Shown piece after piece: positions 16,828 to 62,135 of a stretch of DNA of 64,000 nt. The DNA comes from Beijerinckiaceae bacterium (lineage in GTDB: Bacteria; Pseudomonadota; Alphaproteobacteria; Rhizobiales; Beijerinckiaceae). The translations under genes and the position numbers were made by a program. The notes beneath the pieces were generated by a model. That model was not told where the DNA came from, did not search any database, and saw only the letters and a program-made list of their open reading frames with translations. Numbering within the stretch: position 1 is the first letter of the stretch; each line of letters opens with the position of its first letter. The stretch spans positions 62,001 to 126,000 of the forward strand of contig CANGTC010000001.1 in NCBI GenBank assembly GCA_947456505.1, written 5' to 3'.

Positions 16828-18075
16828 ATGAATTTCCTATGGTTTCATTTGATGCCTTACATGGATCTGCCCGCCGATTTCCGGCAAAAGAACCCATCGG
16901 TCTGGGTCAATATCGATCCTGCGCTGTTCAACCCCGAACGCGCCCACCAGATGTACAATGACTATTTCGATGAACTGGAATACGCGGCGGAACTGGGCTT
17001 CGACGCTGTCTGCGTCAACGAGCATCACTCCAACGCCTACGGACTGATGCCCTCGCCCAATCTCATCGCCATGGCGCTGGCGCGCCGCACCAAGGACACC
17101 AAGATTTGCGTTCTGGGCAACTCCATCGCCCTGTATAATCCGCCAACGCGCGTGGCCGAAGAGTTCGCCATGATCGACTGCGTCTCCGGCGGGCGGCTGA
17201 TTGCGGGCTTTCCGGTGGGTACGCCCATGGACACATGTTTCGCCTATGGCACGAACCCCAGCCAACTGCGTCAGCGCTACATGGAGGCGCATGACCTGAT
17301 CATGCGCTCATGGACCGACCCGAAACCCTTCGCCTTTAACGGCCGTTTCACCCAGCAGGCCCATGTCAATGTCTGGCCCCGCCCGGTGCAAAAGCCACAT
17401 CCGCCCATCTGGATTCCCGGTGGCGGCTCCGTGGAGACCTGGGAATGGTGCGTCCAGAATGACTATGTCTACTGTTACCTCTCCTACGGTGGCTACAAGA
17501 TCGCGCAAGGCACCATGGAGGGTTTCTGGAACACGGTTGAGAAACACGGCAAGGAGAAGAACCCCTACCGCGCCGGGTTCCTCCAATTTGTCGGCGTCGC
17601 CGAGAGCCGCGACGAAGCCATGGATCTCTACACCGAGCCCGCTGAATATTTTTATGGGCGCTGCCAACATATCGATCCGCGCTACGCAGGCCCGCCCGGC
17701 TACACGACGGAGGCGACGCAACGTGCTGGGCTCGAAGGCCAGGTGACGCGAGTGGCGGATCGCTCGAAGCGCGTGCGCGCGACCGAGATGAAGGAAATTG
17801 TCGATCTAGGTTATGTCGTGATCGGCAACGCCAATGACGTGGTCGAGCAGATCCGTGAAGTAGCGCGCTCGCTTCATGTTGGCCAGTTGATGCCCCTGCT
17901 CCACTTCGGCAACATGAGCAAGGATGTCACATTCCGCAATACGAAGCTCTTCGCCGAAAAAGTCATTCCCAAATTAAAGGGAATGTTCAGCGAATATGAG
18001 GATCACTGGTGGCCCAAAGCCATGGACGCAAGCCTCCGCGCGCAAGCGGCGTCGCTGGCGCCCGCCGCCGAATAA
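16828..18075 (+). CDS. LLM-class flavin-dependent monooxygenase (copy 1)
   Basis: 415 residues, a bacterial-luciferase-like TIM barrel. MNFLWFHLMPYMDLP at the start, FDAVCVNEHHSNAYGLMPSPNL (flavin-site strand and the EHH motif), VAEEFAMIDCVSGGRLIAGF and RPVQKPHPPIWIPGGG identify the family. These enzymes use reduced flavin from a separate reductase to oxygenate, desulfonate or cleave small molecules. The hydrolase gene starts 34 bases downstream. The pair is repeated in reverse order at 49800-51751, so monooxygenase plus hydrolase-fold partner is a recurring unit here. Confidence 0.9.
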   Translation: MNFLWFHLMPYMDLPADFRQKNPSVWVNIDPALFNPERAHQMYNDYFDELEYAAELGFDAVCVNEHHSNAYGLMPSPNLIAMALARRTKDTKICVLGNSIALYNPPTRVAEEFAMIDCVSGGRLIAGFPVGTPMDTCFAYGTNPSQLRQRYMEAHDLIMRSWTDPKPFAFNGRFTQQAHVNVWPRPVQKPHPPIWIPGGGSVETWEWCVQNDYVYCYLSYGGYKIAQGTMEGFWNTVEKHGKEKNPYRAGFLQFVGVAESRDEAMDLYTEPAEYFYGRCQHIDPRYAGPPGYTTEATQRAGLEGQVTRVADRSKRVRATEMKEIVDLGYVVIGNANDVVEQIREVARSLHVGQLMPLLHFGNMSKDVTFRNTKLFAEKVIPKLKGMFSEYEDHWWPKAMDASLRAQAASLAPAAE

Positions 18076-18109
18076 TGTGGCGGATATTAGAGAAAGACGG
18101 AGCCAGGCA

Positions 18110-18892
18110 GTGAGTGAACCTGTTGAAACAACCATCGACCTCGATGGCCAGCCCATGCGCGTCTGGACCAAGGGCAGCGGACCAAAAATCGGCTACTTCG
18201 CGGGCTATGGCGGACTACCCCGTTGGATCCCTTTCCTCGACGCCCTGGCGGAACATCGCACCGTGATAGCGCCCTCGCTCCCGGGCTTTCCCGGAGGCGG
18301 GCGCGCGCAGCTCATGCTCGATTCTCATCTCGATTGGATTGTCGCCACACGCCGTATTTTCATGAGCGCCGGACTTGAAGGCGCGGATCTCATCGGGTCC
18401 AGCGTCGGCGGAGGCCTAGCAGCTGAACTCGCGGCGCTATGGCCGCAGGAGGTGCGACGCCTCGCTCTGATTGCGCCGCTGGGCCTGTATCGCGAAGAGG
18501 AGCCGCCAACCGATATTTTCGCCCAGCGCGCAGATGAATATGCAGCTCTTCTATGCGCTGAGCCCGACAACTATCGCGCGCTGAAACAGGCGCCCAACGA
18601 TGTCAATGCCGGCGAATGGGACATTGAACAATCACGAGCTGCTGAGGCCGCAGCCCGTTTGCTATGGCCTATCGCCAACACCCGATTAGACAAGCGGCTG
18701 CCGCTCATCCAACAGCCAACGCTGATCGCCTGGGGCGAGAAAGATGGCGTCATGCCCCGTTCCTATGCGCAATTCATCGCAAACACGATCGCCGGCGAAT
18801 CCCGGATCGAGATCATCGAGGGCGCCGGTCATTTAGCCGAACTGGACAGACCGCGCGCACTTGCAGGTGCGATCCTGGCGTTTACGCAATAA
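18110..18892 (+). CDS. Alpha/beta hydrolase paired with flavin monooxygenase
   Basis: 260 residues from a GTG at 18110 with GGAG eight bases upstream; the longer frame overlaps the monooxygenase and has no ribosome-binding site. Nucleophile elbow GSSVGG (Ser98), acid in LIAWGEKDGVMP and base in GAGHLAEL are all present. The oxyanion HG is replaced by AGYGG (31-35). It follows the monooxygenase and precedes the dihydroxyphthalate-decarboxylase-like gene, probably in one transcript. Related to the nucleophile-less protein at 50960, but this copy looks active. Confidence 0.85.
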   Translation: MSEPVETTIDLDGQPMRVWTKGSGPKIGYFAGYGGLPRWIPFLDALAEHRTVIAPSLPGFPGGGRAQLMLDSHLDWIVATRRIFMSAGLEGADLIGSSVGGGLAAELAALWPQEVRRLALIAPLGLYREEEPPTDIFAQRADEYAALLCAEPDNYRALKQAPNDVNAGEWDIEQSRAAEAAARLLWPIANTRLDKRLPLIQQPTLIAWGEKDGVMPRSYAQFIANTIAGESRIEIIEGAGHLAELDRPRALAGAILAFTQ

Positions 18893-40446: not shown

Positions 40447-42663
40447 CTATCCCGCTTTCGTTCCGGTCCCCGCCATCGCGGCCCGCACCCTCTGCGGGGT
40501 GAAGGGGGCGTTGCGCAGGCGCACGCCCGTGGCGTCGAAGACTGCATTGGCGAGGGCCGCAGCGACTGGCGCAATGGCGGCTTCGCCGGCGCCTACGGGG
40601 GGCTGGTCGGGTCTGTCGATGAGCGCGATGTTGAGTGCGGGCACATCGGGGAAGGTGATGACCTGATAGCTCGACCAATCCACGGCGGTGATGCGCTCGC
40701 GGTCAAACCGGGTCTCTTCAAACATGGCGCGCGACACGCCCTGGATGATGCAGCCCTCGATCTGCGCCTTCACGCTGTCCGGCGAGATCACCTGCCCGCA
40801 ATCATGGGCGCAACTGACACGGGTGACGCGAATCGCGCCGCTCGCCCGATCCACTTCCACATCCATGGCCATGCCCACATAGGTCTCGTTGCCCTTGTAG
40901 TGGGTGAAGGCGACGCCGCGCCCCTTGCCATCCCGGCGAGGCTCGACGCGCGCCTGCCAGCCATGCAGTTCGGCGGTCTTTTTCAGCACGTCAATGGAGC
41001 GCGGATCCCTGAGATATTCGAGACGGAAGGCGAGAGAGTCCTTGCCCGCCGCAAGCGCCAATTCATCCATCATGGTTTCCACGGCCATGAGATTGACGAG
41101 CTTGCCCGGCGCGCGCAGGGGTGCGGTGCGCGCTGGCGTGTCCTTGACATAATGCAACACGGTTTCCATATTGGGGATGTCGTAGGTCGGTATGGCCCCC
41201 ACATTGATCGAGCCCGTCGCGATGCCCTCCATCTGCGGCAAACCAGCCAGTTGCGGCGACACCAGCGGCACATTCGCCAATTTGGGGGTGAGGCGCGGGA
41301 TCCACATATGCGCCCGCCAGGCGGAGATCTTGCCCTCCTTGTCGAGGCCGGCTTCGATGGTCAGGGTCTGCGGGGGGCCCTTGGGGTCCCAAGCCAACTC
41401 ATCGGCGCGCGACCATTGCACCCGCACGGGCTTGCCCACAGCGCGCGATAGGATGGCGGCGTCCATCGCCGCATCGTCATGTCCGTTCATGCCATAGCAA
41501 CCGGCGCCGTCGAGATAGATCTGCCGCACCTTGCCCTTGGGCAATTGCAGAATGCTCTCGAAGGCCTCAGCGAATTTGTGGGTGCCCTGGGAGGCCGTCC
41601 AGATCGTCGCCTCGCCCTCCCGCACATCGGCGATGGCGCAGGAAGGGCCGAGGGAGGCGTGCGACTGCATGGGCCAATAAAAATCAGCCGTCAGCTTTTT
41701 CGCCACATCCGGCCAGGCCTTGTCAAAGTCGCCTTTCTTTTCGGCGATTTCATCCGTGTCGCGGGGGCCGGAGGTGCGCAGATAGGTCTGCGCCTCCGCG
41801 CTGGTGGTGACGATGCCGCCACCCTCCCACTGGGCCTTCAACTGGCGTGCGGCCTTTTCCGCATGCCATTCGCGCTCGGCCACCACTCCCAGATAATCCT
41901 TCACGCGGACAACCTTCACGCCGGGGATGTCGGCGATGGAGGCTTGGTCCACGCTCACCAGCTTTGCGCCGGGGCGCGGCGGATAGACCGAACGGCCATG
42001 CAACATGCCGTCGACGGCGAAATCATGCATCCACACATGGCTGCCTGTCGCCTTGGCCGGCATGTCCGGGCGACGCACATGTTTGCCCACATATTTGTAT
42101 TCGCTGGGCTTGCGGCGGGGCGCCTTCGGATCGAGCTCCAGATTGAACTGGCGGTCGGCGAGCAGGGCCGCGAAGGTGACGCCCGCGCCACCTTTCTTTG
42201 GGCGCACTTCGCCCTCCGCCGTATCAAGCTCCGCTTCGGCAAGACCTAGTTTCTGGGCGCCCAGCTTGATCAGCGCCGCCCGCGCGGTGGCTGCGGCCTG
42301 GCGGGTCTGCACGCCCCCGCGCATCATGCCGTTGGAGCCTGAGGTGGACCCCTGGTCCGGCGTCAGATGCGTGTCGCCCTCGATCATGGTGATGCGTTCG
42401 ATCTGGACGCCCAGTTCGTCAGCGACGATCTGCGGCAGGGCGATGCGGTGGCCGGTGCCAAGATCGACCTTGCCGGAATAGAGCATGACGCCCCCATCCG
42501 CCTTGATCACGAAGTAGGAATCGACCTGTTTGGCGTCGACGCCCCGGCTTTTCGGCGGCGCGCCCGCCAGGTTTTGGGCTGTGGCGGGGCCATGCATGGC
42601 GTAGGCGACGACGAGGGCGCCGGAGCTGGAGAGGAACGAGCGGCGGTTGAGCGACAGGTTCAT
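40447..42663 (-). CDS. Molybdopterin-binding subunit of periplasmic xanthine-dehydrogenase-family oxidoreductase (IorB-like)
   Basis: 738 residues from the ATG at 42663, with GGGAGG upstream. The N-terminus has a Tat signal (NRRSFLSSSGALVVAYAM), so the folded enzyme is exported. GSNGMMRGGVQTRQAA, GRSVYPPRPGAKLVSVDQAS and the catalytic Glu694 in VGAGEAAIAP identify the Mo subunit; it resembles the beta subunit of isoquinoline 1-oxidoreductase and the aldehyde dehydrogenases of acetic acid bacteria, which lack a FAD subunit and pass electrons to cytochromes. Separated by 11 bases from the 2Fe-2S subunit. Probably oxidises an aldehyde or N-heterocycle. Confidence 0.92.
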   Translation of the reverse strand: MNLSLNRRSFLSSSGALVVAYAMHGPATAQNLAGAPPKSRGVDAKQVDSYFVIKADGGVMLYSGKVDLGTGHRIALPQIVADELGVQIERITMIEGDTHLTPDQGSTSGSNGMMRGGVQTRQAAATARAALIKLGAQKLGLAEAELDTAEGEVRPKKGGAGVTFAALLADRQFNLELDPKAPRRKPSEYKYVGKHVRRPDMPAKATGSHVWMHDFAVDGMLHGRSVYPPRPGAKLVSVDQASIADIPGVKVVRVKDYLGVVAEREWHAEKAARQLKAQWEGGGIVTTSAEAQTYLRTSGPRDTDEIAEKKGDFDKAWPDVAKKLTADFYWPMQSHASLGPSCAIADVREGEATIWTASQGTHKFAEAFESILQLPKGKVRQIYLDGAGCYGMNGHDDAAMDAAILSRAVGKPVRVQWSRADELAWDPKGPPQTLTIEAGLDKEGKISAWRAHMWIPRLTPKLANVPLVSPQLAGLPQMEGIATGSINVGAIPTYDIPNMETVLHYVKDTPARTAPLRAPGKLVNLMAVETMMDELALAAGKDSLAFRLEYLRDPRSIDVLKKTAELHGWQARVEPRRDGKGRGVAFTHYKGNETYVGMAMDVEVDRASGAIRVTRVSCAHDCGQVISPDSVKAQIEGCIIQGVSRAMFEETRFDRERITAVDWSSYQVITFPDVPALNIALIDRPDQPPVGAGEAAIAPVAAALANAVFDATGVRLRNAPFTPQRVRAAMAGTGTKAG

Positions 42664-42674
42664 GGCGGCCTCCC

Positions 42675-43136
42675 TCACTTGGCGCTGGCGGCGCGCAGGG
42701 CCGCTTTCACGATACGATCATGGGCGCCGCACCGGCAGACATTGGCCGTCAGCGCATCGCGCACCTGGCCGGAAGACGGCGCCTTTGTTTTCTCCAGAAA
42801 GGCGGCCGTGGTCATCACCATGCCATTGGTGCAATAGCCGCATTGGGAGGCCTGCTCCTCGATGAAGGCGGCTTGCACCGCATGGGGCTTTTGCGGCGTG
42901 CCGAGCCCCTCGATGGTGGTGACCTTGCCCTTGACGGCGGACACAGGCGTCAGGCAAGAGCGCACCGCCTCTCCATCGATGATCACTGTGCAGGCGCCGC
43001 ATTGGCCAAGGCCGCAGCCATATTTGGCGCCGGTCAGGCGCAGGTCGTTGCGCAACACATAGAGCAGGGGCTCCTGGGGATCGTGAACATCGATGGATCT
43101 GGACTGTCCATTCACGTCAAGCACATATCTGGCCAT
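42675..43136 (-). CDS. 2Fe-2S subunit of the molybdenum oxidoreductase (IorA-like)
   Basis: 153 residues. N-terminal plant-type ferredoxin cluster: Cys41, Cys46, Cys49, Cys61. C-terminal helical cluster: Cys99, Cys102, Cys134, Cys136 (CGYCTNGM and CRCG). No signal peptide, so it would be carried out of the cell with the Tat-tagged large subunit. First gene of the minus-strand set that continues through the Mo subunit, Bug, cytochrome-propeller and PQQ dehydrogenase genes. Confidence 0.93.
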   Translation of the reverse strand: MARYVLDVNGQSRSIDVHDPQEPLLYVLRNDLRLTGAKYGCGLGQCGACTVIIDGEAVRSCLTPVSAVKGKVTTIEGLGTPQKPHAVQAAFIEEQASQCGYCTNGMVMTTAAFLEKTKAPSSGQVRDALTANVCRCGAHDRIVKAALRAASAK

Positions 43137-43362: not shown

Positions 43363-44366
43363 ATGTCCGCATCCAAACGCCGCCGCATTTGCCTGATGAT
43401 GGGCCCCGGCACCCTGCCCAGCCAGGGGCGCGACCGGATGGATCTCACCCATTACAACGCCAAACTCAGCGGCAAGCCGCGCCTTACCCCGCGCGAAATG
43501 GTCGCCGCCTTTCCCGAGATCGAGGAGATTGCGCAGATCGTCCATGACGATGACGGCGCCAATGAGCAGGCCACCCATGAGGATCTGCGGCGGTTGTCCC
43601 GCAAGATCAATGGCGTTCTCGCCCGCGGCGATGTCGATGGCCTCGTCTATATCCAGGGCACGAATACATTGGAGGAGACCGCCTATTTCCTCAACCTGAC
43701 TTTGCGGAGCGATAAGCCCATGGTGGTGGTTGGCGCCCAGCGTCCCTTCACCGCCATCAGCACCGACGCCCATCTCAATCTCGTTAACGCCATTCGCGTG
43801 GCGGCATGCGAGGAGGCGCGCGGCAAGGGCGTCGTCACCGTCACCAACAGCGAGATCAACGCCGCGCGCGACGTGACGAAGACCTCGACTTATCAAGTGC
43901 AGACCTTCCAGAGCCGGGACCTCGGCGTGCTGGGCTACGCCGACGCTGACCGAATCGTGTTCTATCGCGCGCCGCTGCGCCGCCACACCACCCAATCGGA
44001 ATTCGACATCATGGCCATCGAGGCCCTGCCAGCGGTGGAGGTGCTCTACCCCCACACCGGCAGCAACCCCGGGCTTCCGCGCGCAGCAGTGGCCCTTGGA
44101 GCGCGGGCGCTCGTCATCGCAGGCGTCGGCGCCGGGGCGCTGGGGTTTTCACCGAGGAACTGAAGGCCCTGGTGGCGGAGGGCGTCATCGTCGCCCGTAG
44201 CGCCCGGGTCGGCGAGGGTCGGGTGCTCGCCATCGGCAACACCCATGAAGAGGGCATGATCGCCACCGACAACCTCAACCCGCAGAAAGCGGCGGTCCTT
44301 CTGGCGCTGGCCCTGACGAAGACGCGGGACCCCCAGAAGTTGCAGCGGTTTTTTGATGAATATTGA
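43363..44366 (+). pseudogene. Asparaginase-family protein broken by a frameshift
   Basis: The first frame (43363-44163) gives 266 residues: GPGTLPS with the nucleophile-position Thr17, QGTNTLEETAYFL (100-112 region, where the usual catalytic Asp of GTDT is Asn101), and ARDVTKTSTYQVQTF. It stops early. The last 70 residues continue one frame away (FTEELKALVAEGVIVARSARVGEGRV to KLQRFFDEY, ending at 44366). The break is in GGGGTTTT at 44142-44149 and one extra base there restores a normal ~330-residue asparaginase. Either a real loss of function or a sequence error; the surrounding codons look undecayed, which favours a recent event or an error. Confidence 0.85.
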
Positions 44367-44371
44367 GGCAC

Positions 44372-44393
44372 TGCGGTCGTTTAGCTGACCGCA
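44372..44393. terminator. Hairpin between convergent asparaginase and ABC operon ends
   Basis: TGCGGTC and its complement (44372-44378, 44387-44393) around an eight-base loop that contains the stop of the ABC ATPase gene. Probable shared terminator. Confidence 0.55.
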
Positions 44394-45356
44394 TCCGCCT
44401 TCTTTAAATGGCACGCCACCGCATGCCCCGGCGCGATCTCCACCAATTCCGGCTCGGCCTGACGGCAGATCGCCTCCGCCAGGGGGCAGCGGGTGTGGAA
44501 GCGGCAGCCTGAGGGGGGCGCGATAGGGCTGGGGGTTTCGCCCGTGATCAGGGTGCGGGTCCGGCGGCGGGTGGGGTCAGGAACCGGCACCGCCGAGAGC
44601 AGCGCCTGGGTATAGGGATGGGCGGGCGCGGCGAAGAGGGTTTCGCGCGCGGCCACCTCCACCATCTTGCCCAGATACATGACCGCGACCCGGTGGGAGA
44701 TGTGCTCCACCACCGAAAGGTCATGGGCGACGAAGAGATAGGCGAGGCCGAGATCCCGTTGCAGGTCGCTCAGCAGATTGATCACCTGCGCCTGAATGGA
44801 GACGTCCAGCGCGCTGACGGGCTCATCGCAGACGATCAGGGCCGGGTTCACCGCCAGCGCCCTGGCGATGCCGAGGCGCTGCCGCTGGCCGCCGGAGAAC
44901 TCGTGCGGGAAGTTGCGCATCTGCTCGCGCCGCAGGCCTACCCTGTCAAAAAGCGCCGCCACCCGCCGGTCCAGTTCGGCGCCCTCCGCGAGGGCGAAAT
45001 TCACCAGCGGTTCGGCCACGATGTCGCCCGCGCGGTGGCGCGGGTTGAGGGAGGAAAAGGGGTCCTGAAAGATGATCTGCAGATTGCGCCGCAGGGGCCG
45101 CATCTGGCTCTCGGGAAGATGGGCGATGTCTTCGCCGCGCAGTTCGATGCGCCCGGAGGTAGGTTCGTTGAGGCGTACGATGCAGCGCGCCACGCTCGAC
45201 TTGCCGCAGCCGCTCTCCCCCACCAGACCCAGCGTCTCGCCAGCGGCGATGTCGAAGGACACCCCATCGACCGCCCGCACGAAACGCTGCGGCTCCAGAA
45301 AACCGCGTGACGTCGGATAGTATTTGACCAGGTCTTTGACGGCGAGGAGCGGGGCG

Positions 45357-45367
<11 letters not shown>
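44381..45367 (-). CDS. Dipeptide/oligopeptide-type ABC transporter ATPase, DppF-like (system 1)
   Basis: 328 residues from the ATG at 45367, overlapping the previous ATPase gene by 11 bases; the much longer frame is shadow. Walker A GESGCGKSS, signature FSGGQRQR, Walker B LIVCDEPVSALD, H-loop VAHDLSVVEH. The C-terminal oligopeptide-transporter extension is present with its cysteines (SGCRFHTRCPLAEAIC and AVACHL). Last gene of a seven-gene operon. Substrate may be a peptide, but family members also take glutathione, nickel chelates and opines. Confidence 0.92.
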
Positions 45368-46381
<1,014 letters not shown>

Positions 46382-46382
<1 letters not shown>

Positions 46383-47257
46383 CAGCGTCGCCCCGCCATG
46401 CGTGGATCCAGCGCATCGCGCAACCCATCGCCCAGCAGGTTGATGGAGAGCACCGTCAGGCCCAGCATCATGCCGGGGCACAGCAGGATCCAGGGGGCGT
46501 TACGGATGAAAGTGCGGCCCCCCGCCATCATGTTGCCCCAGCTCGGCGTTTCCGGCGGCGTGCCGACCCCGAGGAAGCTCAGGGACGCCTCCAGAATGAC
46601 CGCCAGCGCACAGATGAAGGTGCCCTGCACGATCAGGGGCGCCAGCACATTGGGCAGCACATGGCGCACCAGCAATTTGAGGGGCCGCGTGCCCACGGCG
46701 ATGGCGGCCTCCACATAGGTCTGCTCGCGCACACTCAAAACGACGGAACGCACCACGCGAACCACGCGAGGAATTTCGGGCAGGGTGATCGCCACGATCA
46801 GGGTCATGGCGCCGGGCTTGTTGATGGACACCAGCGCCACGGCGAGCAGGATCCCCGGGATCGACATGATGGCGTCCATGATGCGCATGACAATCGCATC
46901 GACCCGCCGATAAAAGCCCGCCACGATGCCGATGGTGAGGCCGAAGAGGGTGCTGAACAGGGTGACGCCCAGACCCACCAGCAAGGACACCTGTCCGCCA
47001 TGGATGGCCCGGCTGAACACGTCGCGGCCGAAGGAATCCGTGCCGAATGGATGCTCCCACGAGGGCGGCCGCAAGCGTTGGATCGGCGCCATGGCGAGGG
47101 GGTCCGCCAAGGGCAACAGGGGCGCACACAGCGAAGCCAGCGCCACAATGAGCACAAAGGCCCCCGCCGCCGTCATAACCCAGTTGCGCGCCAGCGCCCG
47201 CCGCAAACCGGACTGGCGCGGGACAGGACTCGCAACGGCTTCAGAAAACAGGGACAA
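46382..47257 (-). CDS. ABC transporter permease, DppC-like (system 1)
   Basis: 291 residues with an N-terminal membrane segment, the periplasmic HPFGTDSFGRDVFSRAIHGG motif of DppC proteins, several further helices and the EAA-type loop VGTRPLKLLVRHVLPNVLAP. It contacts the ATPases in the inner membrane and dimerises with the DppB-like permease, from which it is 9 bases away. Confidence 0.93.
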
Positions 47258-47266
47258 GGGGCTTCC

Positions 47267-48208
47267 TCAATAGCGAATGCGCGGATCGAGCGCGAGATAG
47301 GCGAGGTCGATGGCGAGGTTCAGCATCACATAGACGAAGGAAAAGAACAGGATCAGGCCCTGAATGACCGGGTAGTCATGGGCGAGGATGGCGTCGACCG
47401 TGAGCCGACCGAGGCCAGGAATGGAGAAGACGCTTTCCGTGATCACCGCACCCCCGATCACCAGCGCGACGCCTACGCCCGCCGTGGTGAGGATCGGCAC
47501 AGAAGCGTTCTTCAGCGCATGGACGAAGAGCACCGCCGATTGCGGCAAACCCTTGGCGCGGGCGGTGCGAATATAGTCCTGCCGCAGGATCTCCAGCATG
47601 GTAGCCCGCGTCATGCGCGTCAGCAGCGCCACATAGGCGAGGCCCAGCGTTACGGTAGGCAGCGCTATATGGGACAGGAAGGGGCCAAGCCCCTCGCCGA
47701 TGGGTTTGAATCCCTGCACGGGAAACCACCGCCACTGGATCGCGAAGAGCCATACCAGCAGATAGCCAGTGAAGAAAACCGGAAAGGAGAAGGACATCAC
47801 CGAGCCGATCATCACCATCCGGTCGGCGATGGCGCCCGACCGGGAGGCGGCGAAGACGCCCAGCGGCACCGACACGCAAAGCGCGAAGATCATGGTGGTG
47901 ATCGCAAGGGAAATGGTTGGCTCCAGCCTTTGCAGGATCAGTTGCGTAACCGGCAGGTTCGACAGCACCGAATGGCCCAGATCGCCCTGCGCCAATTGAC
48001 CGATCCAGATCACGAATTGATCCAGAAGCGGCTTGTCCAGCCCCAAAGCCATGCGTACGCGTTCGATGTCTTCCTGCGTGGCGGAATCACCCGCGATGAG
48101 GCTCGCCGGATCCGTCGGGCTTAGCCGCAGAAGCAGGAAGACAAAGGTGACCACGGTCGCCGCCACCGGGATAACGCCGAGGATGCGCTTGAAGACATAA
48201 CCCAGCAT
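47267..48208 (-). CDS. ABC transporter permease, DppB-like (system 1)
   Basis: 313 residues, six predicted membrane helices. LGYVFKRILGVIPVAATV start, the GLDKPLLDQFVIWIGQLAQGDLG segment, EAA loop RTARAKGLPQSAVLFVHALKNA and SIPGLGRLTVDAILAHDYPV near the end are characteristic. Starts six bases after the binding-protein gene stop. Confidence 0.93.
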   Translation of the reverse strand: MLGYVFKRILGVIPVAATVVTFVFLLLRLSPTDPASLIAGDSATQEDIERVRMALGLDKPLLDQFVIWIGQLAQGDLGHSVLSNLPVTQLILQRLEPTISLAITTMIFALCVSVPLGVFAASRSGAIADRMVMIGSVMSFSFPVFFTGYLLVWLFAIQWRWFPVQGFKPIGEGLGPFLSHIALPTVTLGLAYVALLTRMTRATMLEILRQDYIRTARAKGLPQSAVLFVHALKNASVPILTTAGVGVALVIGGAVITESVFSIPGLGRLTVDAILAHDYPVIQGLILFFSFVYVMLNLAIDLAYLALDPRIRY

Positions 48209-48214
48209 GGCGCC

Positions 48215-49789
48215 TCAGCCGCCCTTCTCCATGCCCCAGTAAACCACAAGCGGGGTTTGCGAAATATTCGTGATCGCCTTGCGATGCGCCATCCAGGTGG
48301 AGGTTTGCATGACCGGCACATAGGGCACGAATTCCACGGCCCTCAGCTGGATCTTCTCCGCGACCGCTTTGCGCTGATCCATGGTCGCAGCCCTGGCGAA
48401 GTCATCCTTCAACCGCTCGATTTCGGCGTCGCAGGGCCAACCCGCCGCCGCCTGGTCGCAGTTGGAGGCGAGATAGATATTGGTCATGGGCGAGGCTACA
48501 TCGACGCCGAAGTTGCCGGAATGCGCCAGATGCCAGCCGCCTTGGCCGGGCGGCTCCTTCTTGTTGCGACGCGTCAGCATGGAGTTGTAGTCCATGCCCT
48601 GCAATTCGACATTGACCCCGATCTTGCGCAACTGCGACGCCGTCACCAGAGTGGCGCCGTCGAAAGCTGGCTGATTGGTCGGCTCAAGAATGACGATCTT
48701 TTCGCCTGCATAGCCCGCTTCCTTCATCAGGGCGCGGGCCTTTTCCAGATCCGGTTTGACGGCGCCTGCGGTCGATCCATAGATGGAGCCGCACATCAGA
48801 TAGGCAGGGCAAACCGAATAGAGCGATTTGTCGCCCGCGACCGCCTGCCCATAGAGCTCCTGGTCCACCAGATAGAGCAGCGCTTGCCGCGCCTTGGCGT
48901 TGTTGAAAGGCGGATGCAGATGGTTCATGCGCAAATAGGGCTGATTGCCCGTCACATCCGTGGCGCGCACGACCAGCTGGGAATCGCTTTTCAACTGGGG
49001 CATCACCTCGAAGGCGAGGCTCTCGATCAGATCGATTTCGCCGGCCGCAAGGGCATTGGCGGCTGTATTGACATCGGGCATGCTGATCCACTCGACGCGG
49101 TCGAGCTTGACCACCTTGGCGCCAGCCATGCCGTTCGGAGGATCGTTGCGGGGCTTGTAGTCCTTGTTTCGCTCGTAGACGCTCTTGACGCCCGGCTGCC
49201 AAAGGTCCTTGCGGAACACGAAGGGGCCCGAGCCAATGGGTTCGAATTGCGGGGAGCCATCAGGCAGGTTGGCGATCCGCTCCGGCAGCATGAAGGGCGC
49301 GTTGCCGCTGGGCTTGGCGAGGGCGTCGAGCACAAGCCCGAAGGGCTCGCGCAGCTTCAGGATGATGGTTGTCTCGCCCTCTGCCGACAGGCCGTCCATA
49401 GCCGCCGCCAGTTTGGTTCCAAGCCCGTCCTTGCGCAGGAAACGCTTTAATGATGCGACGCAGTCGGCCGCCGTCACCGGCTTGCCATCATGCCAGCGCA
49501 GGCCCTCGCGCAGGGTGAAGCGCCATGTCAGCTTGTCATCGGACTGGGACCAGTCGCCCACCATCTGGGGCTTGGGCTGACGCTGCTCGTCAAGGGCGAA
49601 CAGAGTTTCATAGATCAGGTGTCCATGGTTGCGCGTGCCATAGTTCGTATTCACGAAGGGATCGAGAATACGCACTTCAAGCTGCGGTACGGAGCGAATG
49701 ATCTTGTCGGCGGCCTGCGCTGGAAGCGCGAGGCCAAGGGTTGCGCTCAAGGCGAGGCCAAGGCTGCGAAGGCGGGAGACGTTTCCCAT
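48215..49789 (-). CDS. Family 5 extracellular solute-binding protein (system 1)
   Basis: 524 residues from the ATG at 49789 (a GTG directly before it is in frame); GGGGGAA lies upstream. Signal peptide ends at PAQAA. IRSVPQLEVRILDPFVNTNYG and TWRFTLREGLRWHDGKPVTAADCV are the family 5 hallmarks. It delivers the substrate to the BCDF complex encoded next. It is not especially like the two binding proteins at 51975 and 60562. Follows the flavin monooxygenase by ten bases, so import and oxygenation are likely co-regulated. Confidence 0.92.
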   Translation of the reverse strand: MGNVSRLRSLGLALSATLGLALPAQAADKIIRSVPQLEVRILDPFVNTNYGTRNHGHLIYETLFALDEQRQPKPQMVGDWSQSDDKLTWRFTLREGLRWHDGKPVTAADCVASLKRFLRKDGLGTKLAAAMDGLSAEGETTIILKLREPFGLVLDALAKPSGNAPFMLPERIANLPDGSPQFEPIGSGPFVFRKDLWQPGVKSVYERNKDYKPRNDPPNGMAGAKVVKLDRVEWISMPDVNTAANALAAGEIDLIESLAFEVMPQLKSDSQLVVRATDVTGNQPYLRMNHLHPPFNNAKARQALLYLVDQELYGQAVAGDKSLYSVCPAYLMCGSIYGSTAGAVKPDLEKARALMKEAGYAGEKIVILEPTNQPAFDGATLVTASQLRKIGVNVELQGMDYNSMLTRRNKKEPPGQGGWHLAHSGNFGVDVASPMTNIYLASNCDQAAAGWPCDAEIERLKDDFARAATMDQRKAVAEKIQLRAVEFVPYVPVMQTSTWMAHRKAITNISQTPLVVYWGMEKGG

Positions 49790-49799
49790 CACGTTCCCC

Positions 49800-50963
49800 C
49801 TATTCGGCTGCGGCGCGCGGGGTCTGGGGCTGCCGATCGCGGAAATAGGGCAGGATCTCCTCTGCGATGGCGATCTGATTTTCCGTCACCAGCGCGTGCG
49901 GCATGGTGCCGAACTGGGTTTTGGTGAGGGAAATATTGAAGCGCGCGCGATCCTGACAGGCCGCGAGTTTCTCGCGCACCGTGTTGGGGCTGCCCACGAT
50001 CACCATCCCCTTCTCGATGATCTCCTCAGCGCTTTGCCGACCGCCACGAACAGCCTTGATGGCGCGCACGCGTTTGATGGACTCCACGCTGGAATAGCCG
50101 GGCGGGCTCATCATGGCCGGGTTGCGGGTCAGGAACTCGTTCATATAGGCCTCAAGATGGGGCCGCACGTCGCGCATGGCCTTCTCGTCGGTCTCGCGCA
50201 CGAAGATCGCGTTGGACCAGGCGAGCTGATCGGGCGAGGCCTCATAACCCGCCTTGTCTGCCTCCTGCCGGTAAAGATCGAAGGTGCGGGCCACGGCATC
50301 AAAGGGCGCCAGGGTCTGACAATAGGTGTAGCGCTTTTGCGCCGCCCAGCGGATCGTGCTCAGGGAGCCCGACGAGGGAATGAAGATCGGCGGATGGGGC
50401 TGCTGATAGGGGCGCGGCCAGGGATTCACATATTTGAACTTGTAATATTTGCCCTCGTAGGCGAAGGGCCCGGGCTCGGTCCAGGCGCGAATGATCAGGT
50501 CATGAGCTTCGGCGAAGCGCTCCTGGGATTCCGCCGGATTGGTGCCGAAGCTGTGATACTCCGCGCCGATGCCGCGCACGAAGCCCGCGATGAAATTGCC
50601 GCGCGTGATATTGTCCAGCATGGCGTATTCTTCCGCTACGGTGAGCGGGTTGTTGAGCAGCGGCAAGGCGCGGCCCAGCACGGCGAGCTTGCCGTTCTTG
50701 ATACGCCGCGCCAGCGCGCCCGCCATCACGCCGGGCGTGGGCATGAGACCATAAGCGGTTTGATGGTGCTCGTTCACCACCAGGCCATCGAAACCCAGCT
50801 GGTCCGCAAATTCCATCTGGTCGAGATATTCGTTGTAGAGTTCGGCGCCCTTGATGGGGTCGTAATGCTTATTGGAGAGCGTCACCCAGGCGCTGCCCGC
50901 CTCACGGATGGCGTCAAGGTCCATATGCGCATAGGGCATGAGGTGAAAATGAAAGATCTTCAT
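49800..50963 (-). CDS. LLM-class flavin-dependent monooxygenase (copy 2)
   Basis: 387 residues from the ATG at 50963, coupled to the hydrolase-fold gene by an ATGA overlap. MKIFHFHLMPYAHMDL, FDGLVVNEHHQTAYGLMPTPG, VAEEYAMLDNITRGNFIAGF and RPYQQPHPPIFIPSSG align with copy 1 at 16828. It lies at the head of the ABC operon, so its substrate is probably what that transporter brings in. A reduced-flavin donor must come from elsewhere. Confidence 0.9.
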   Translation of the reverse strand: MKIFHFHLMPYAHMDLDAIREAGSAWVTLSNKHYDPIKGAELYNEYLDQMEFADQLGFDGLVVNEHHQTAYGLMPTPGVMAGALARRIKNGKLAVLGRALPLLNNPLTVAEEYAMLDNITRGNFIAGFVRGIGAEYHSFGTNPAESQERFAEAHDLIIRAWTEPGPFAYEGKYYKFKYVNPWPRPYQQPHPPIFIPSSGSLSTIRWAAQKRYTYCQTLAPFDAVARTFDLYRQEADKAGYEASPDQLAWSNAIFVRETDEKAMRDVRPHLEAYMNEFLTRNPAMMSPPGYSSVESIKRVRAIKAVRGGRQSAEEIIEKGMVIVGSPNTVREKLAACQDRARFNISLTKTQFGTMPHALVTENQIAIAEEILPYFRDRQPQTPRAAAE

Positions 50964-51751
50964 GATGCGGCCCTCTCGATAGACTGGAACGTGTCGACAA
51001 GCCCCGTGAAAGCGGCGGGAGCCTCCAATTGCGGGGCATGACCGCAATTGGGCAACATCTCCAGCCGGGCGCCGGGAATGAGCCTGCGCCATTCCTCCCC
51101 ATAGGGTTTTGGAAAGAGGCGGTCTTCCGCGCCCCAGATGATCAGGGTCGGCTTGGCGATCCGATGCAGCCATTTGCACAGATCCGGATCATGCAGCCGC
51201 GGCTGCCAGGTGAGCCGGGCGTTGACCTCATAATTCTGCAGTCGGGCGTCTTCCAGCTCCGGCGTCATAACCTCGGCGACGATGGGTTCGGCGAGCGCGG
51301 CGTCGTGGAAGAGGCTACGCACGACCTCCTCCTCGCTCATCAGGAATGGGTCGATCTGCGCAACCCCATTAATATGGAGGCCCGCGGCCGCGCTCAGGAT
51401 CAGGCTGTCGACGCGGGCAGGATTGCGCGTCGCCAGATCCGCCGCGATCCAGCCGCCGCAACCCAGACCCAGCAGCTTGACGTGATCGATGTTCAGGACA
51501 TCGAGGAAGTCGAGGTAGAAATTCGCGAGGTCGGAGACATTGTCGAGCCAATCCGGCAGCGCTTGCCCACCAAAGCCAGGATGCTCTGGCAAAAGGACCT
51601 CATGGGTCTGCGCCAGCTCGTCCATAAAGGGTCGCCATGTCTGGGGACCGACGAAATCATTGAGGATCAACAAGGGCTGCCCGCGCCCCGCCCGCGACAA
51701 ACGAAGCTTGTAGCCCCGCACGTCCAAACTATCTTCCGACGGCGCCTGCAT
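50960..51751 (-). CDS. Alpha/beta-hydrolase-fold protein lacking the nucleophile Ser
   Basis: 263 residues from the ATG at 51751 (GGGGG five bases upstream; another ATG lies 15 bases earlier). The fold is clear: LLPEHPGFGGQALPDW, a strand-helix elbow, LIIWGAEDRLFP with the acid, and NCGHAPQLEAP with the base. The elbow reads LLGLGCGGW, so the position of the Ser in G-x-S-x-G is Gly and the next residue is Cys; the usual oxyanion HG is also changed (LNDFVGP). It is therefore probably not an ordinary esterase. First gene of the operon with the monooxygenase and ABC system 1. Confidence 0.85.
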   Translation of the reverse strand: MQAPSEDSLDVRGYKLRLSRAGRGQPLLILNDFVGPQTWRPFMDELAQTHEVLLPEHPGFGGQALPDWLDNVSDLANFYLDFLDVLNIDHVKLLGLGCGGWIAADLATRNPARVDSLILSAAAGLHINGVAQIDPFLMSEEEVVRSLFHDAALAEPIVAEVMTPELEDARLQNYEVNARLTWQPRLHDPDLCKWLHRIAKPTLIIWGAEDRLFPKPYGEEWRRLIPGARLEMLPNCGHAPQLEAPAAFTGLVDTFQSIERAAS

Positions 51752-51974
51752 TGTTTCCCCCAACATGTGCTTTTGATCAGGCTAGAGCGCGCCGGCGCCG
51801 CCTGTCAACCGCCGACGAGGGTTGCCAGCGCTGTTAAAGACCGGCTGGCGTAATGCTGAATTTGCAAGCGGGGCGCGAGGCGAGGCGTATGAGCGTCTTT
51901 CGTCCCGCCGGTTGCATGCGCGAGGTCCGGACCGCGACCGGAGGCGATGATCCAGTCCTGACCTCAACGTTCCA

Positions 51975-53501
51975 TCAACGCATTTTCACGTCGAGCCACC
52001 AGGCCTCGCCAGATGGATCGTTCGGCCATTCGATGTTCGAACGGACGCCATTGATGAGCCTATGGGACCACAAGAACTGGGCCGGCGCCTCTTCGGCGAG
52101 CTTTTCCGAAACCTGCCGCAGGATTTCGCACCGCTTTTCAGGCTCGAAACTCGCTCTGGCCTTCTGGAACAGAGCGTCGACATCCGGGTTTGAATATTTG
52201 ATGCGTGGCGACACGCCGGTTTCGAAATATTGAGACAGGGCGACCGCCGGATCGGCGACCTGCCCGCGCCCCATATAATACATCGGGACCTTGCCGTTGC
52301 GCACATCAGCCCAAAGGTTCGCCCATTCGGGCGTTTTCAGCGTCACCTTGAACCCGGCCTGGGTCAGCATCTGAGCGATCGCTTCGGAAATTTGCCGGTC
52401 CGAAATATAGCGTCCTGTGGAGGAATAATACTCAATCTCGGGACCGCCGTTTGCATAGCCCGCCTCGGCGAGAAGCGCCTTCGCCTTCTGCACATCATAA
52501 CGCGCGGCGGACTTCGCGTCGCCCTGATAGCAGAATTGATTGGGCCCGAGCGGGCCATTCAGCGGATCGGCGTAGCCGAGCAGCAATCGTTGCATGATCG
52601 CATCACGATTGATCGCATGGGCTGCGGCTCGCCTGACGCGCGGGTCATCCCAGGGTTTCGCCGAAGGGCTCATCGCCAGGAACATGATTTCGACAGAACC
52701 AGTCTGCACAACCTTGACGTCCGCACCGTTCTTGAGCCTGTCAACAAGTTGCGGCGGCACAAGGCGGGCGACCTGGATCTCATTGTTCAGCAACGCCGTC
52801 ACCCGTTGCTCCGGCTCTCGCATCTGCCGATAGACGACCACGTCCGGAGCCTCGGGCCGCGCTTCCGGCCAAAGGGGATTTTTGCGGATCACATAGCGTT
52901 GATCGACGGCGAAATCCTCGAATTTGTAAGGTCCCCATCCATGGGGATGGGTCCTGTAAGCCTGTTTGCCATGCTTCTCGAACAATTCCTCGCTGGTGAT
53001 GGCGAATTGTCCGAAAATATCCGCAGGCAGCTGAGAGCTGGGCGAGGTGGTGTTGATGTCCACGGTCTTGTCGTCAACGGCGACCACATCTTTCACGGAC
53101 GAGAACAGGAACCGTTGCTGGCTTTCCGGATCGGTCATGATCCGCTTCCAGGAGTGGACAACGTCTTTCGCCGTCGGCGCCGCGCCGCCATCGCTGCGCT
53201 TCAGATCAGTCCGCAGCGTGAAGCGCCAGGTATTGCCATTGTTGATGACTTCCCATTTCTCAGCGAGCATTCCCACGAATGCTTTTTTCTCATAGTCGAG
53301 ACGTCCAAGGCAGCCGTAGACCTGACACCAGATAAAATAGAGTTGGGATTCGCTCTCGGCGTAGGGATCCATGGTTGTGATGGTGGAGGCCGATGACACG
53401 TTCAGCACCCGGTCGGCCGCCTGCGACGCGGCAGGCGTGAAACCCAAAGCGAGCGTCGCCAAAGCGGCGGCGAAAGACGCGCGAGCCTGGATCTTCAACA
53501 T
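51975..53501 (-). CDS. Family 5 extracellular solute-binding protein (system 2, receptor a)
   Basis: 508 residues from the ATG at 53501, with GGAG upstream. Signal peptide ends near ASQAA. LNVSSASTITTMDPYAESES, YFIWCQVYGCLGRLDY and RTDLKRSDGGAAPTAKDVVH are shared in order with the protein at 60562, including the paired Cys in CxxYGCLGR, so the two are paralogues. No permease is adjacent on its strand; the nearest BCDF set (55419-59067) probably serves both. Divergent from the amidohydrolase at 53742. Confidence 0.9.
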   Translation of the reverse strand: MLKIQARASFAAALATLALGFTPAASQAADRVLNVSSASTITTMDPYAESESQLYFIWCQVYGCLGRLDYEKKAFVGMLAEKWEVINNGNTWRFTLRTDLKRSDGGAAPTAKDVVHSWKRIMTDPESQQRFLFSSVKDVVAVDDKTVDINTTSPSSQLPADIFGQFAITSEELFEKHGKQAYRTHPHGWGPYKFEDFAVDQRYVIRKNPLWPEARPEAPDVVVYRQMREPEQRVTALLNNEIQVARLVPPQLVDRLKNGADVKVVQTGSVEIMFLAMSPSAKPWDDPRVRRAAAHAINRDAIMQRLLLGYADPLNGPLGPNQFCYQGDAKSAARYDVQKAKALLAEAGYANGGPEIEYYSSTGRYISDRQISEAIAQMLTQAGFKVTLKTPEWANLWADVRNGKVPMYYMGRGQVADPAVALSQYFETGVSPRIKYSNPDVDALFQKARASFEPEKRCEILRQVSEKLAEEAPAQFLWSHRLINGVRSNIEWPNDPSGEAWWLDVKMR

Positions 53502-53741
53502 AAGCCTCTCCCCCAAAGTCGCGTTTTTTTCTCGCGATGCATCGCATTAAGCCAGAAATTTCGCGAAGATCAAGTTACTTCGAGATATGGCGTTTATGTG
53601 CGCCGACGCACCCTGCCGCAATCTTGCGCAGCCCATCCGCGTGAACTCGTGGCGGTCCCTGCCCCCGTTGCGGGCCAGCACAGGAGATCTTGCCTCTCCC
53701 CGAAGTGATTGTTACGCTTCGACGCCCATGGGAGGTACAAG

Positions 53742-55403
53742 ATGCACGCAGCGATCGCACCGGATCTCATCCTCACGAATGGGCGCATCCTGACCTCCGA
53801 TGCGGACAATACGGAGGCGGAAGCTGTCGCGGTGAAGATGGGGCGCATTCTGGCGGTTGGCTCCAGTCGCGAGATCATGGCGCTGAGGGGGTCGGCGACG
53901 CAGGTTCTGGACCTTCGCGGCCGCACAGTGCTTCCCGGCCTCACCGATCCCCATGTGCATCTGGCGGACGACGGCGCCGCCTCGCTCCACAACATCGACG
54001 TGCGGGACTTCAACACCAATGTGCGCTCCATCGACCATATTCTGGAGGTGGTGCGGGCGCAGGCGCGCGAGGTTCCGCCCGGGACCTGGATCGTCGGCAC
54101 GGGCAGTCCCATGCAGGACTTCCGCATGCCGGAAAAGAGATTTCCGCGCCGCGAGGAGCTGGATCTGGTGGCGCCCGATCACCCCGTCTACATCGGTTTT
54201 GGCGCCCATGTGACCATCGCCAACAGCAAGGCGCTGGAGCTGGCCAAGGTCACCAAGGAGACGCAGGCGCCGGGCGGCGGCGCCATCGAGCTGGACGCCA
54301 TAACGGGCGAGCTGACCGGCAAACTCGTCGAGCGTGCGCAATATCTCGTCAAGAGCGCCAAACCCCCTTTCACTTATGAAGAGATGAAAGAGGGCATTGT
54401 ATTTGCAACCAAGCGAGCTTTGCGGCGCGGCGTAACGACGATCCACGATGTCGTCACCAACAACGAGACCATCCGCGCCTATCAGGAACTTGCGGCGGAA
54501 GGCCGTCTGCCCGTGCGCGTGAGCATGATGATCCGCATCATCGAGGCCAAGGTGACGCCCGAGAGCATGCTGAATCTCGGGCTCAAGACGGGCTTTGGCA
54601 ATGACTGGATCCGCATCGGCGGCGTCAAGATGTCCATTGACGGGGGCATCACCGGGCGGGTGGCGGCCTTCAGCCAGCCCTATGCGGACGATCCATGCCG
54701 CTGCGGCCTCATCCGCATTCCCAGAGAGGAGCTGGATTCGACGGTGGACGCCTACCATCGCGCGGGGAACCGGGTCTGCATCCACGCCATCGGCGACACG
54801 GCCATGGACATGGCGCTGGATGCGGTGGACAAGGCGCTCACCGCCAATCCGCGCGAGGATCACCGCCACCGCATCGAACATCTCGGCAACTGGATGATCA
54901 CCCCCGAGCGCCTCGCGCGCATTCGCAAGCTGGATGTGCTGCCGGTGCCTAACGTGCCCTTCCTGCACTATATCCACGATTCCCTGATGGAATGTATGGG
55001 TCCGGAGCGACTGGAGGGCGCTTTTGGCGTCCGCACCATGCTGGAGTCAGGCATCAAGCTGACGTCCGGCTCTGATGGTCCGGGCTACTGGCCCGCTGAT
55101 CCCCTGCGTGACATATGCACCTCGGTCTCCCGCAAGATCTGGAGCGGCGCCACGGTGGGTCCTGAAGAGGCGATCTCCGTGGAGCAGGCTTTACGCATGT
55201 TCACGATCAACGCCGCCTATAATGGCTTCGATGAGCGCATCAAGGGCTCCATCGAGCCGGGCAAGCTGGCTGACCTGGCGGTGCTGGCTGAAAACCCCTT
55301 CACGGTGGAGGCGGAGAAGATCAAGGACATTCCGGTGGATATGACCATCGTCGATGGCAAGGTCGCCTTCATGCACGAACAGGCGGTCGATCTGCATCAT
55401 TGA
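53742..55403 (+). CDS. Amidohydrolase, YtcJ-like
   Basis: 553 residues from the ATG at 53742, with GGAGG seven bases upstream. Metal ligands begin with His71 and His73 (GLTDPHVHL); a later histidine is in HAIGDTAMDMALD, another in HRIEHLGNW, and SGSDGPGYWPADP carries the terminal Asp. The large inserted domain and length are those of the YtcJ/amidohydrolase-3 group, which cleaves N-acyl and formamide-like bonds. It is cytoplasmic, divergent from a binding-protein gene and convergent with the ABC ATPases, consistent with hydrolysis of an imported amide. Confidence 0.9.
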   Translation: MHAAIAPDLILTNGRILTSDADNTEAEAVAVKMGRILAVGSSREIMALRGSATQVLDLRGRTVLPGLTDPHVHLADDGAASLHNIDVRDFNTNVRSIDHILEVVRAQAREVPPGTWIVGTGSPMQDFRMPEKRFPRREELDLVAPDHPVYIGFGAHVTIANSKALELAKVTKETQAPGGGAIELDAITGELTGKLVERAQYLVKSAKPPFTYEEMKEGIVFATKRALRRGVTTIHDVVTNNETIRAYQELAAEGRLPVRVSMMIRIIEAKVTPESMLNLGLKTGFGNDWIRIGGVKMSIDGGITGRVAAFSQPYADDPCRCGLIRIPREELDSTVDAYHRAGNRVCIHAIGDTAMDMALDAVDKALTANPREDHRHRIEHLGNWMITPERLARIRKLDVLPVPNVPFLHYIHDSLMECMGPERLEGAFGVRTMLESGIKLTSGSDGPGYWPADPLRDICTSVSRKIWSGATVGPEEAISVEQALRMFTINAAYNGFDERIKGSIEPGKLADLAVLAENPFTVEAEKIKDIPVDMTIVDGKVAFMHEQAVDLHH

Positions 55404-60561: not shown

Positions 60562-62094
60562 CTATTTCATCTGGGCTTTCGGCAGCCAATATTCGCCGGA
60601 CATGTCGATCTCCATGTCGATATTGGCGCGCATGCCCGTGACGAGCGTATGGGTCCACATGAAGTGCATGGGCGCATCGTCAATCATGATCTGGTTCAAC
60701 TGGCGCCAGATCTGGCAACGTTTGTCGGGGTCCGCTTCCGCGTATTGCGCCGCGAGCAACTCATCGAATTTCGGATTGGAATATTGCACGCGCGGCGACC
60801 CGCCTGTGGCGAGGAACTGGCCCGCCGCGTCAGATGGATCAAAGACCGATCCACGCCCCATGTAATAGAAGGGCGATTGACCCTTGCGCACATCGGCCCA
60901 GAAGTTGGCGTATTCGGGCGTGTTGAGTTTCACCTTGAAGCCTGCTTGCCGCAGCATCTGCGCGACGGCTTCAGCGATCTGACGGTCGGAGACGTAACGG
61001 CCGACGGCAGTATTGAACTCGATTTCAGGCCCGCCGTTGGAATAACCAGCCTCCGCCAGAAGGGCCTTGGCCCTGGCGAGGTCATAGCCGTTGGTGCGGT
61101 CGGCAGGGCCGGTGTAACAGGACTGATTGGGGCCCACGAGCCCATCCTGCACCTTGCCATAGCCGCCGAGCAACCGATCCACGATCAACTGACGGTTGAT
61201 GGCCAAAGCGGCGGCGCGGCGCAGGCGAATGTCCGTCCAGGGCGCGAGTTTATTGTTGAAAGCGAGAAACATCACCTCGATGCCTCCAGTCTTCAGCACC
61301 TTTACACCCGCCTGCCCTTCAATTCGCGACACCAGCTGCGGCGAAACTGATTTGGCGACCTGCACCTCGCCATTGAGAAGCGCGTTCACCCGCTGCTCCG
61401 GCTCGCGCATCTGCTGCAGGATAACCAGATCGGGTGAAGTCTTCGTGTCGCCACCATCCGGTTCGATCCAGTCGGAGTGTTTGCGCATCACCACGCGGCG
61501 ATCCGCCAGATATTGCTCCAGCTTGTAGGGCCCCCAGCCAAAGGCGAATTTCTTGTCGGCTTCACGTCCGTGCTGCTTGTAAAGCTCGGCGGAGGTGACG
61601 GTGAAGCGGTCGAACAAAGCGAAGACCAGATTGACCGCCGGCGCCTTGGTCTTGATGTCGAAGGTCAGATCATCGACCGCCACGATCTTGTCAATCATGG
61701 CGACGAAGGAGCTTTGCACGCTCTCGGGGTCGGTGCGGATTCGGTTCAGAGAATGGATCACATCCTGCGAGGTTGGACCGGGGCCTCCATCGTGACGTTT
61801 GAGATCCTTGCGCAGGGTAAAGCGCCAGGTGGTCGCGTCAATGGCCTCCCACTTCTCAGCAAGGATGCCAATGGGCTTGTTACGCGCGATGTCATAACGC
61901 CCCAGACAGCCATAGGTATGACACCATAGTGAATAGACCGGCGCGGAAGAATCCCCGTAGGGATTATCGGTCGTCATCGGCTCCGTCGCCGTGATGGTCA
62001 TAGTCCTCGTTTGCGCTAAGGCATCGCCCAGAGCCGAGGCAAGCAAGGCCGCCATGACAACGATCAGCCGCTTACTTTTTGAGTTCACCGCCAT
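60562..62094 (-). CDS. Family 5 extracellular solute-binding protein (system 2, receptor b)
   Basis: 510 residues from the ATG at 62094, with GGAGAGG upstream. Signal peptide ends near DALAQ. MTTDNPYGDSSAPVYSLWCH, TYGCLGRYD, ILAEKWEAIDATTWRFTLRK and MREPEQRVNALLNGEVQVAK align with the protein at 51975. The pair probably share the BCDF transporter and widen its substrate range. The M20 gene precedes it by 41 bases on the same strand. Confidence 0.9.
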   Translation of the reverse strand: MAVNSKSKRLIVVMAALLASALGDALAQTRTMTITATEPMTTDNPYGDSSAPVYSLWCHTYGCLGRYDIARNKPIGILAEKWEAIDATTWRFTLRKDLKRHDGGPGPTSQDVIHSLNRIRTDPESVQSSFVAMIDKIVAVDDLTFDIKTKAPAVNLVFALFDRFTVTSAELYKQHGREADKKFAFGWGPYKLEQYLADRRVVMRKHSDWIEPDGGDTKTSPDLVILQQMREPEQRVNALLNGEVQVAKSVSPQLVSRIEGQAGVKVLKTGGIEVMFLAFNNKLAPWTDIRLRRAAALAINRQLIVDRLLGGYGKVQDGLVGPNQSCYTGPADRTNGYDLARAKALLAEAGYSNGGPEIEFNTAVGRYVSDRQIAEAVAQMLRQAGFKVKLNTPEYANFWADVRKGQSPFYYMGRGSVFDPSDAAGQFLATGGSPRVQYSNPKFDELLAAQYAEADPDKRCQIWRQLNQIMIDDAPMHFMWTHTLVTGMRANIDMEIDMSGEYWLPKAQMK

Positions 62095-62135
62095 GGACCT
62101 CTCCATTCCCTTGGATCGGGGAACCGCACACCGCT

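Follow-up and report, generated by a model that had tools for sequence, protein, structure and literature searches.

Within the window, by which we mean the whole 64 kb stretch of DNA that was analyzed, there is a pair of genes encoding an α/β hydrolase-fold protein (P0001) and a luciferase-like (LLM) flavin monooxygenase (P0003), together with a transport gene cluster and a second hydrolase-LLM pair (Table 1). The stop codon of P0001 and the start codon of P0003 share 4 bp (ATGA, 50960-50963). P0001 comprises 263 amino acids when read from the ATG at 51751, or 268 if translation begins at the upstream in-frame ATG at 51766. It matches the Pfam profile Abhydrolase_1 (2.5e-21, 76.9 bits against a cut-off of 25.8), and an AF2 model calculated with 76 homologues as input has a mean pLDDT of 96.5 and a pTM of 0.94, with the whole α/β hydrolase fold. 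Given the profile match and the high-confidence full fold, P0001 is a genuine hydrolase-fold protein rather than a chance reading frame, and on profile and fold (AF2, Foldseek) it belongs in the α/β hydrolase superfamily. The window comes from a genome (G000) of 4.39 Mb, 88% complete and divided into 325 contigs.

Table 1. Positions of genes and active-site elements in the window.
Feature	Position	Strand	Basis or remark
α/β hydrolase-fold gene lacking the nucleophile Ser (P0001)	50960..51751	-	ORF, Pfam, AF2
Nucleophile elbow G-L-G-C-G-G-W (within LLGLGCGGW)	51449..51469	-	Gly97 codon GGT at 51461-51463, at the Ser position
Oxyanion position Asn31-Asp32 (ILNDF), replacing His-Gly	51656..51661	-	Sequence
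Asp210, triad acid (GAEDRLFP), retained; Asn in L061 and L068	51122..51124	-	Alignment
His238, triad base (NCGHAP), invariant in 76-sequence alignment	51038..51040	-	Alignment
Partner LLM flavin monooxygenase (P0003)	49800..50963	-	Pfam Bac_luciferase, 1.9e-42
Family-5 ABC solute-binding protein, downstream of the pair	48215..49792	-	Pfam SBP_bac_5; common to G420 and G431
Two ABC permease genes (47267-48208, 46382-47257), same cluster	46382..48208	-	ORFs
Two ABC ATPase ORFs (45357-46481, 44381-45766), starts not fixed	44381..46481	-	ORFs; homologues in G420
Ser-bearing paralogue P0002 (GSSVGG), the window's other pair	18107..18892	+	LLM gene 16828-18075 just upstream

The sequence-only reading had described a hydrolase fold with Gly in place of the nucleophile Ser, the acid and base motifs kept and the oxyanion His-Gly changed to Asn-Asp, and the sequence reads exactly so. 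Degenerate DNA encoding the elbow has a single match in the window and no match in 100 shuffles. Of the features of a canonical Ser hydrolase, P0001 has the acid and the histidine, and lacks both the GxSxG serine and the oxyanion His-Gly. With the serine gone and the oxyanion site altered, classical acyl-enzyme hydrolysis of esters would be excluded for such a protein. No named NCBIfam family reaches its cut-off against P0001; the best named profiles are PcaD (8.9e-27) and HsaD (6.7e-23), far under their curated cut-offs. A cofactor-free dioxygenase of the HOD/QDO type would be recognized by a substrate-activating His, an Asp after strand 6 and oxygenase activity. P0001 has AAAG at 121-124 with no acid after strand 6 and no profile points to an oxygenase. 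The earlier suggestion of a cofactor-free oxygenase-like enzyme has nothing specific in its favour.

Two other genomes of the genus have homologues of the ABC permeases: G420 (L131) has both, in unchanged order, and G431 (L149) has a homologue of the first. Two more family-5 solute-binding proteins and an Amidohydro_3 enzyme lie around the pair (51975-55403 and 60562-62106), which suggests peptide- or amide-like substrates. Near the cluster there is a two-gene molybdopterin/2Fe-2S dehydrogenase of the xanthine dehydrogenase type (MoCoBD, Fer2; 40447-43136, minus strand), and at 43363-44163 (plus strand) an asparaginase with a whole N-terminal domain and 36 of the 114 positions of its C-terminal domain, a possible frameshift or truncation. 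The related gene previously placed at 18110 does keep its serine; this is P0002, which lies beside the window's other LLM gene, yet here too the oxyanion His-Gly is altered (FAG). Throughout G000 there are 19 hydrolase and 46 LLM matches, with at least a dozen hydrolases adjoining an LLM gene, and this unusual expansion of LLM genes and hydrolase-LLM pairs recurs across the genus. One G000 paralogue (L039:1486-2307; G000:C4:50389-51141) has Thr at the nucleophile position (GATLGG, codon ACG) and stands in tandem with a second hydrolase-LLM pair.

Among 51 genomes of the genus we found 19 orthologues of the partner LLM, counting that of the window, with 74-98% identity to P0003 and a clear gap before the next match at 57%. 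Their hydrolase partners form a single clade (SH-aLRT 100), in which the nucleophile position is Gly in 14, Ala in one (L063) and Ser in four (L071, L072, L075 and L076). No loss of the hydrolase is known beside any of the 19 LLM orthologues; the G431 pair is interrupted by a contig end, so that hydrolase and LLM lie on two contigs. It had been proposed that homologues all carrying Ser would point to a local mutation. Instead 15 of the 19 orthologous partners lack it, so the loss of the serine is old and conserved. Mean pairwise identity among the 15 Ser-less loci is 52.5% for the hydrolases and 79.8% for the LLMs, and with hydrolases so much more diverse than their partners the Gly cannot merely reflect recent common descent. 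All 15 Ser-less hydrolases are full-length open frames.

The alignment reveals what the Ser-less members hold in common. His238 is invariant, Ser-less members included, and Asp210 is retained in 13 of the 15, with Asn in the two others, L061 and L068 (GAEN, GEKN). At the elbow the conserved pattern is G-x-G-x-G, and not the G-L-G-C-G that had been thought possibly conserved; position 98 may be C, A, L, M or V, with Cys only in the window protein and an 86%-identical sister (GLGCG in both). Clade A has x-D/E as its oxyanion motif, clade B has R-G and the Ser subclade Q-G, so that an acidic residue (D/E) is present at position 32 in all eight clade A members and absent in clade B. In total 44 of 263 columns are invariant among the 15, and no new catalytic residue is common to all of them.

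Serine is encoded by TCN in 96 of 97 paired homologues, including TCG in all four members of the Ser subclade, and glycine at this position by GGN. Conversion of TCN to GGN takes at least two substitutions. The intermediate would be Ala (GCN) or Cys (TGY), and each of these is found in the wider family. The LLM tree places the Ser subclade as sister to clade B (96/95) and hence nested, and forcing all Ser-less rows into one clade is marginally rejected (p-AU 0.041). Trees and codons favour two losses, with the ancestral serine retained in the Ser subclade, as the simplest account. Reversion from Gly to Ser would be less likely than retention because the codon there is TCG and not the one-step AGY. 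Over the tree of the whole paired family there are at least nine changes between Ser and non-Ser states. The latter include Thr (L039), Cys (L042, L186, L198 and L199) and Ala (L086 and L194), of which those seen in a single genome may include assembly errors, as the main clade cannot.

In five independent close pairs of Ser-less hydrolases dN/dS is 0.08-0.25, inside the range for Ser-type pairs, and with values this low the gene is maintained by purifying selection with no sign of decay. The ratio of hydrolase to LLM dN is higher for Ser-less pairs (4.5-10.8, median 6.7, n = 5) than for Ser-type pairs (median about 2.6, n = 26; Mann-Whitney P = 0.003), partly as a result of a slower LLM. Relaxed selection in the Ser-less members was rejected on these two grounds, the matching dN/dS and the contribution of the LLM to the difference in ratio. 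The largest ratio among pairs is 40, for L117/L118, where the hydrolases are 84% and the LLMs 99.5% identical.

The hydrolase-LLM unit is conserved while its flanking genes vary, and the window's ABC genes are shared only with G420 and G431. In 12 of the 15 Ser-less loci the LLM gene is immediately followed by the gene for a second esterase, BD-FAE (PF20434), whose GHSAG is intact. A BD-FAE fragment at a contig end in G420, beyond the ABC genes, brings the linked total to 13 of 15. The clade's four Ser loci have no BD-FAE, nor does any of 76 further Ser-type pairs for which 300 nt or more is available downstream; one tabulated match at a Ser-type locus belongs to a neighbouring Gly pair. A Fisher test of linkage within the clade gives P = 0.004, a value that ignores kinship among related loci and so overstates their independence. 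No BD-FAE lies near the window pair anywhere in the 64 kb, and a linked copy is also absent in the sister genome G431. G000 has a BD-FAE on another contig, about 51% identical and with no LLM or ABH gene within its 11.7 kb stretch, and in the tree this groups with unlinked copies that genomes of the Ser subclade also carry. Clade A and clade B do not have their BD-FAE copies in one clade, in a tree with some moderate supports and a fragmentary G420 copy. A single origin for both is unsupported, and the tree suggests that BD-FAE was recruited more than once, which makes the association more telling.

P0001 belongs to a wider family of hydrolases paired with LLMs, in that it adjoins an LLM gene and is codirectional with it, and it contains all the residues invariant in that family (L46, P58, G59, D74, G99, W101, G124, W182, P184, L191 and H238). 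Genomes of the genus have up to 16 hydrolase matches each (51 genomes, including a MAG deposited as 'Rhizobium sp. Q54'), and in one genome-contig scan close relatives of the window pair occur at one locus only. The nearest pairs outside the genus, on Neorhizobium plasmids and in other alphaproteobacterial genera (12 of 12 pairs), have the same gene order and families, and their hydrolases, 43-48% identical to P0001, keep the serine. The Gly clade was found only in the window's genus, within a partial sample of 398 order, 298 family and 385 class genomes, and may reach further. Elsewhere in the family L186:2247-3038 and L199:1264-2136 have a Cys nucleophile (GQCxGG), Asn as the acid (WSEGN, WGRDN) and an altered His context (AAH, CAH), and are another case of active-site remodelling. 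A subgroup of L086, L087, L088, L089, L191 and L194 has the oxyanion sequence LASE or LAGE, and its close relatives switch between Ser and Ala (GFSLGG and GFALGG).

RutD (TIGR03611) of the E. coli rut operon, reportedly described by Knapik et al. in 2012 as lacking a canonical nucleophile, provides the closest parallel. Like P0001, whose gene overlaps a Bac_luciferase gene by 4 bp, it is a hydrolase-fold protein whose gene accompanies that of an LLM-fold FMN monooxygenase (RutA). However, P0001 scores only 49.9 bits against the RutD cut-off of 238.5 and is therefore not filed as RutD; in the present case Gly replaces Ser, and the loss is limited to a single clade in a family whose members mostly bear Ser. 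The remaining rut genes (rutB, rutC, rutE-G) were not seen beside the pair among the subset of window genes scanned. Growth tests show RutD to be dispensable, and the reaction that it is believed to accelerate also proceeds on its own (PMC8113886); by analogy RutD is the nearest working counterpart of P0001. In ABHD5/CGI-58 the GxSxG serine is likewise replaced (Asn153) with Asp and His kept, and the protein activates another enzyme, so that a Ser-less hydrolase fold can act as a coactivator (PMC9694394). ABHD5 is eukaryotic, however, and acts with patatin-type lipases at lipid droplets, and we claim no orthology. A survey of the fold lists Ser-less D/E-H dyads and cofactor roles (PMC11878206). 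The closest solved folds are those of meta-cleavage product hydrolases (CumD, BphD, CarC and DxnB2; Foldseek E 2e-19, TM about 0.8), but these and PcaD need a Ser-Asp-His triad and are only about 20-25% identical. Serine-less hydrolases are thus known already from RutD and ABHD5. What is new here is that 13 of the 15 Ser-less pairs have a second, intact esterase linked to them. Our literature search, which covered only a minority of subscription papers, found no pair of an LLM with a disarmed hydrolase.

We give close to an even chance to the explanation that P0001 is a retained, non-hydrolytic partner of the monooxygenase, with ester cleavage delegated to another enzyme. The family, widespread in Alphaproteobacteria, would have begun as Ser-dependent hydrolases. 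Since LLM monooxygenases are capable of Baeyer-Villiger reactions giving esters (PMC12239570), the ancestral hydrolase would most simply have cleaved an ester- or lactone-type product of its partner. In the window's clade two or more substitutions then replaced the serine, the oxyanion site was remodelled, and hydrolysis would have passed to another enzyme, usually the linked BD-FAE; it is the linkage that is observed, and the function would follow from it. The Ser-less protein may bind the monooxygenase or a labile product, and may hold, shield or pass on that product, with His238 possibly acting as an acid or base. The fixed loss of serine, low dN/dS, conserved pairing, linkage of BD-FAE and loss of the acid in two members are all consistent with such a partner, as are the two-step codon change, the likely repeated recruitment of BD-FAE and the precedent of ABHD5. 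Against it, the window and G431 have no linked BD-FAE and the nearest copy is unlinked. The invariant His238 and near-constant Asp210 exceed what a pure scaffold would need (though 44 columns are invariant anyway), and a hydrolase that diverges faster than its LLM (dN ratio 4.5-10.8) is unusual for a tightly packed subunit. Of the three roles first put forward, that of a chaperone or subunit for the monooxygenase fits best, on the conserved pair, purifying selection and BD-FAE in 13 of 15 loci, with the physical interaction itself presumed.

Somewhat unlikely, in our estimate, is that the protein is still an enzyme and works without a nucleophile, the Asp210-His238 dyad serving as general acid/base on a labile monooxygenase product, as has been proposed for RutD. 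It might hydrate, deaminate, decarboxylate or isomerize, and clade A perhaps adds the acidic residue 32. Such a His/Asp mechanism is possible because the histidine is invariant in 76 sequences and the aspartate present in 13 of 15. The complete AF2 fold, D/E at position 32 in all eight clade A members, the RutD precedent of a reaction that is also spontaneous (PMC8113886) and a weak similarity to TIGR03611 are also in keeping with it. It accommodates less easily the change of acid to Asn in L061 and L068, the missing acidic residue in clade B and the lack of any new catalytic residue common to all 15, and other hydrolase families outscore RutD, itself at 49.9 of the required 238.5 bits. The gene could alternatively be a relic in transition, its esterase function moved elsewhere and the gene persisting mainly through translational coupling to the LLM on the way to being lost. 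The recurrent independent changes of nucleophile (at least nine), the drift of oxyanion and acid and the higher dN ratio (6.7 against about 2.6, P = 0.003) would agree with this. We consider it improbable in the face of full-length frames in 15 of 15, a dN/dS no different from Ser-type, a ratio partly due to the slower LLM, 44 invariant columns and no LLM among the 19 orthologues known to be without its hydrolase.

The suggestion that the adjacent Cys98 took over, making a shifted Cys hydrolase, takes its support from the window protein and its sister. It is very unlikely for them and is rejected for the family, as the other 13 Ser-less members have A, L, M or V at this position and other paralogues (L042, L186, L198 and L199) have a true Cys nucleophile one residue earlier, at 97. 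In this fold, moreover, position 98 supplies the oxyanion NH from the elbow's helix side (PMC11878206). A local mutation or assembly error might be thought of in a source of 325 contigs and 88% completeness, and can be dismissed almost entirely. In 15 of 19 orthologues, from different genomes and with several Gly codons, this position is likewise Gly or Ala; being fixed in orthologues and at least two nucleotide changes from TCN, Gly97 is no sequencing slip.

We return to the retained non-hydrolytic partner. In its fullest form an esterase would have been repeatedly disarmed and yet have remained an obligate partner of the LLM, and hydrolysis would fall to a second esterase from another subfamily, newly recruited to the cluster, with all the stages preserved in one genus. 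This may be so, and we hold it tentatively.

Disarmed hydrolase-fold partners of oxygenases have been known from single cases such as RutD, and their role is still disputed. Here the fixed loss in 15 of 19 partners, mostly with an intact esterase linked to the pair, suggests that the Ser-less hydrolase is kept for something other than cutting esters. For such pairs the fold alone should not yield an annotation of 'monooxygenase + esterase'. One genus provides Ser, Ala and Gly versions of the partner beside much the same monooxygenase, and a replacement esterase is linked to some of these pairs and missing from others. With this series of variants it becomes testable what a non-hydrolysing hydrolase-fold partner does for a flavin monooxygenase.
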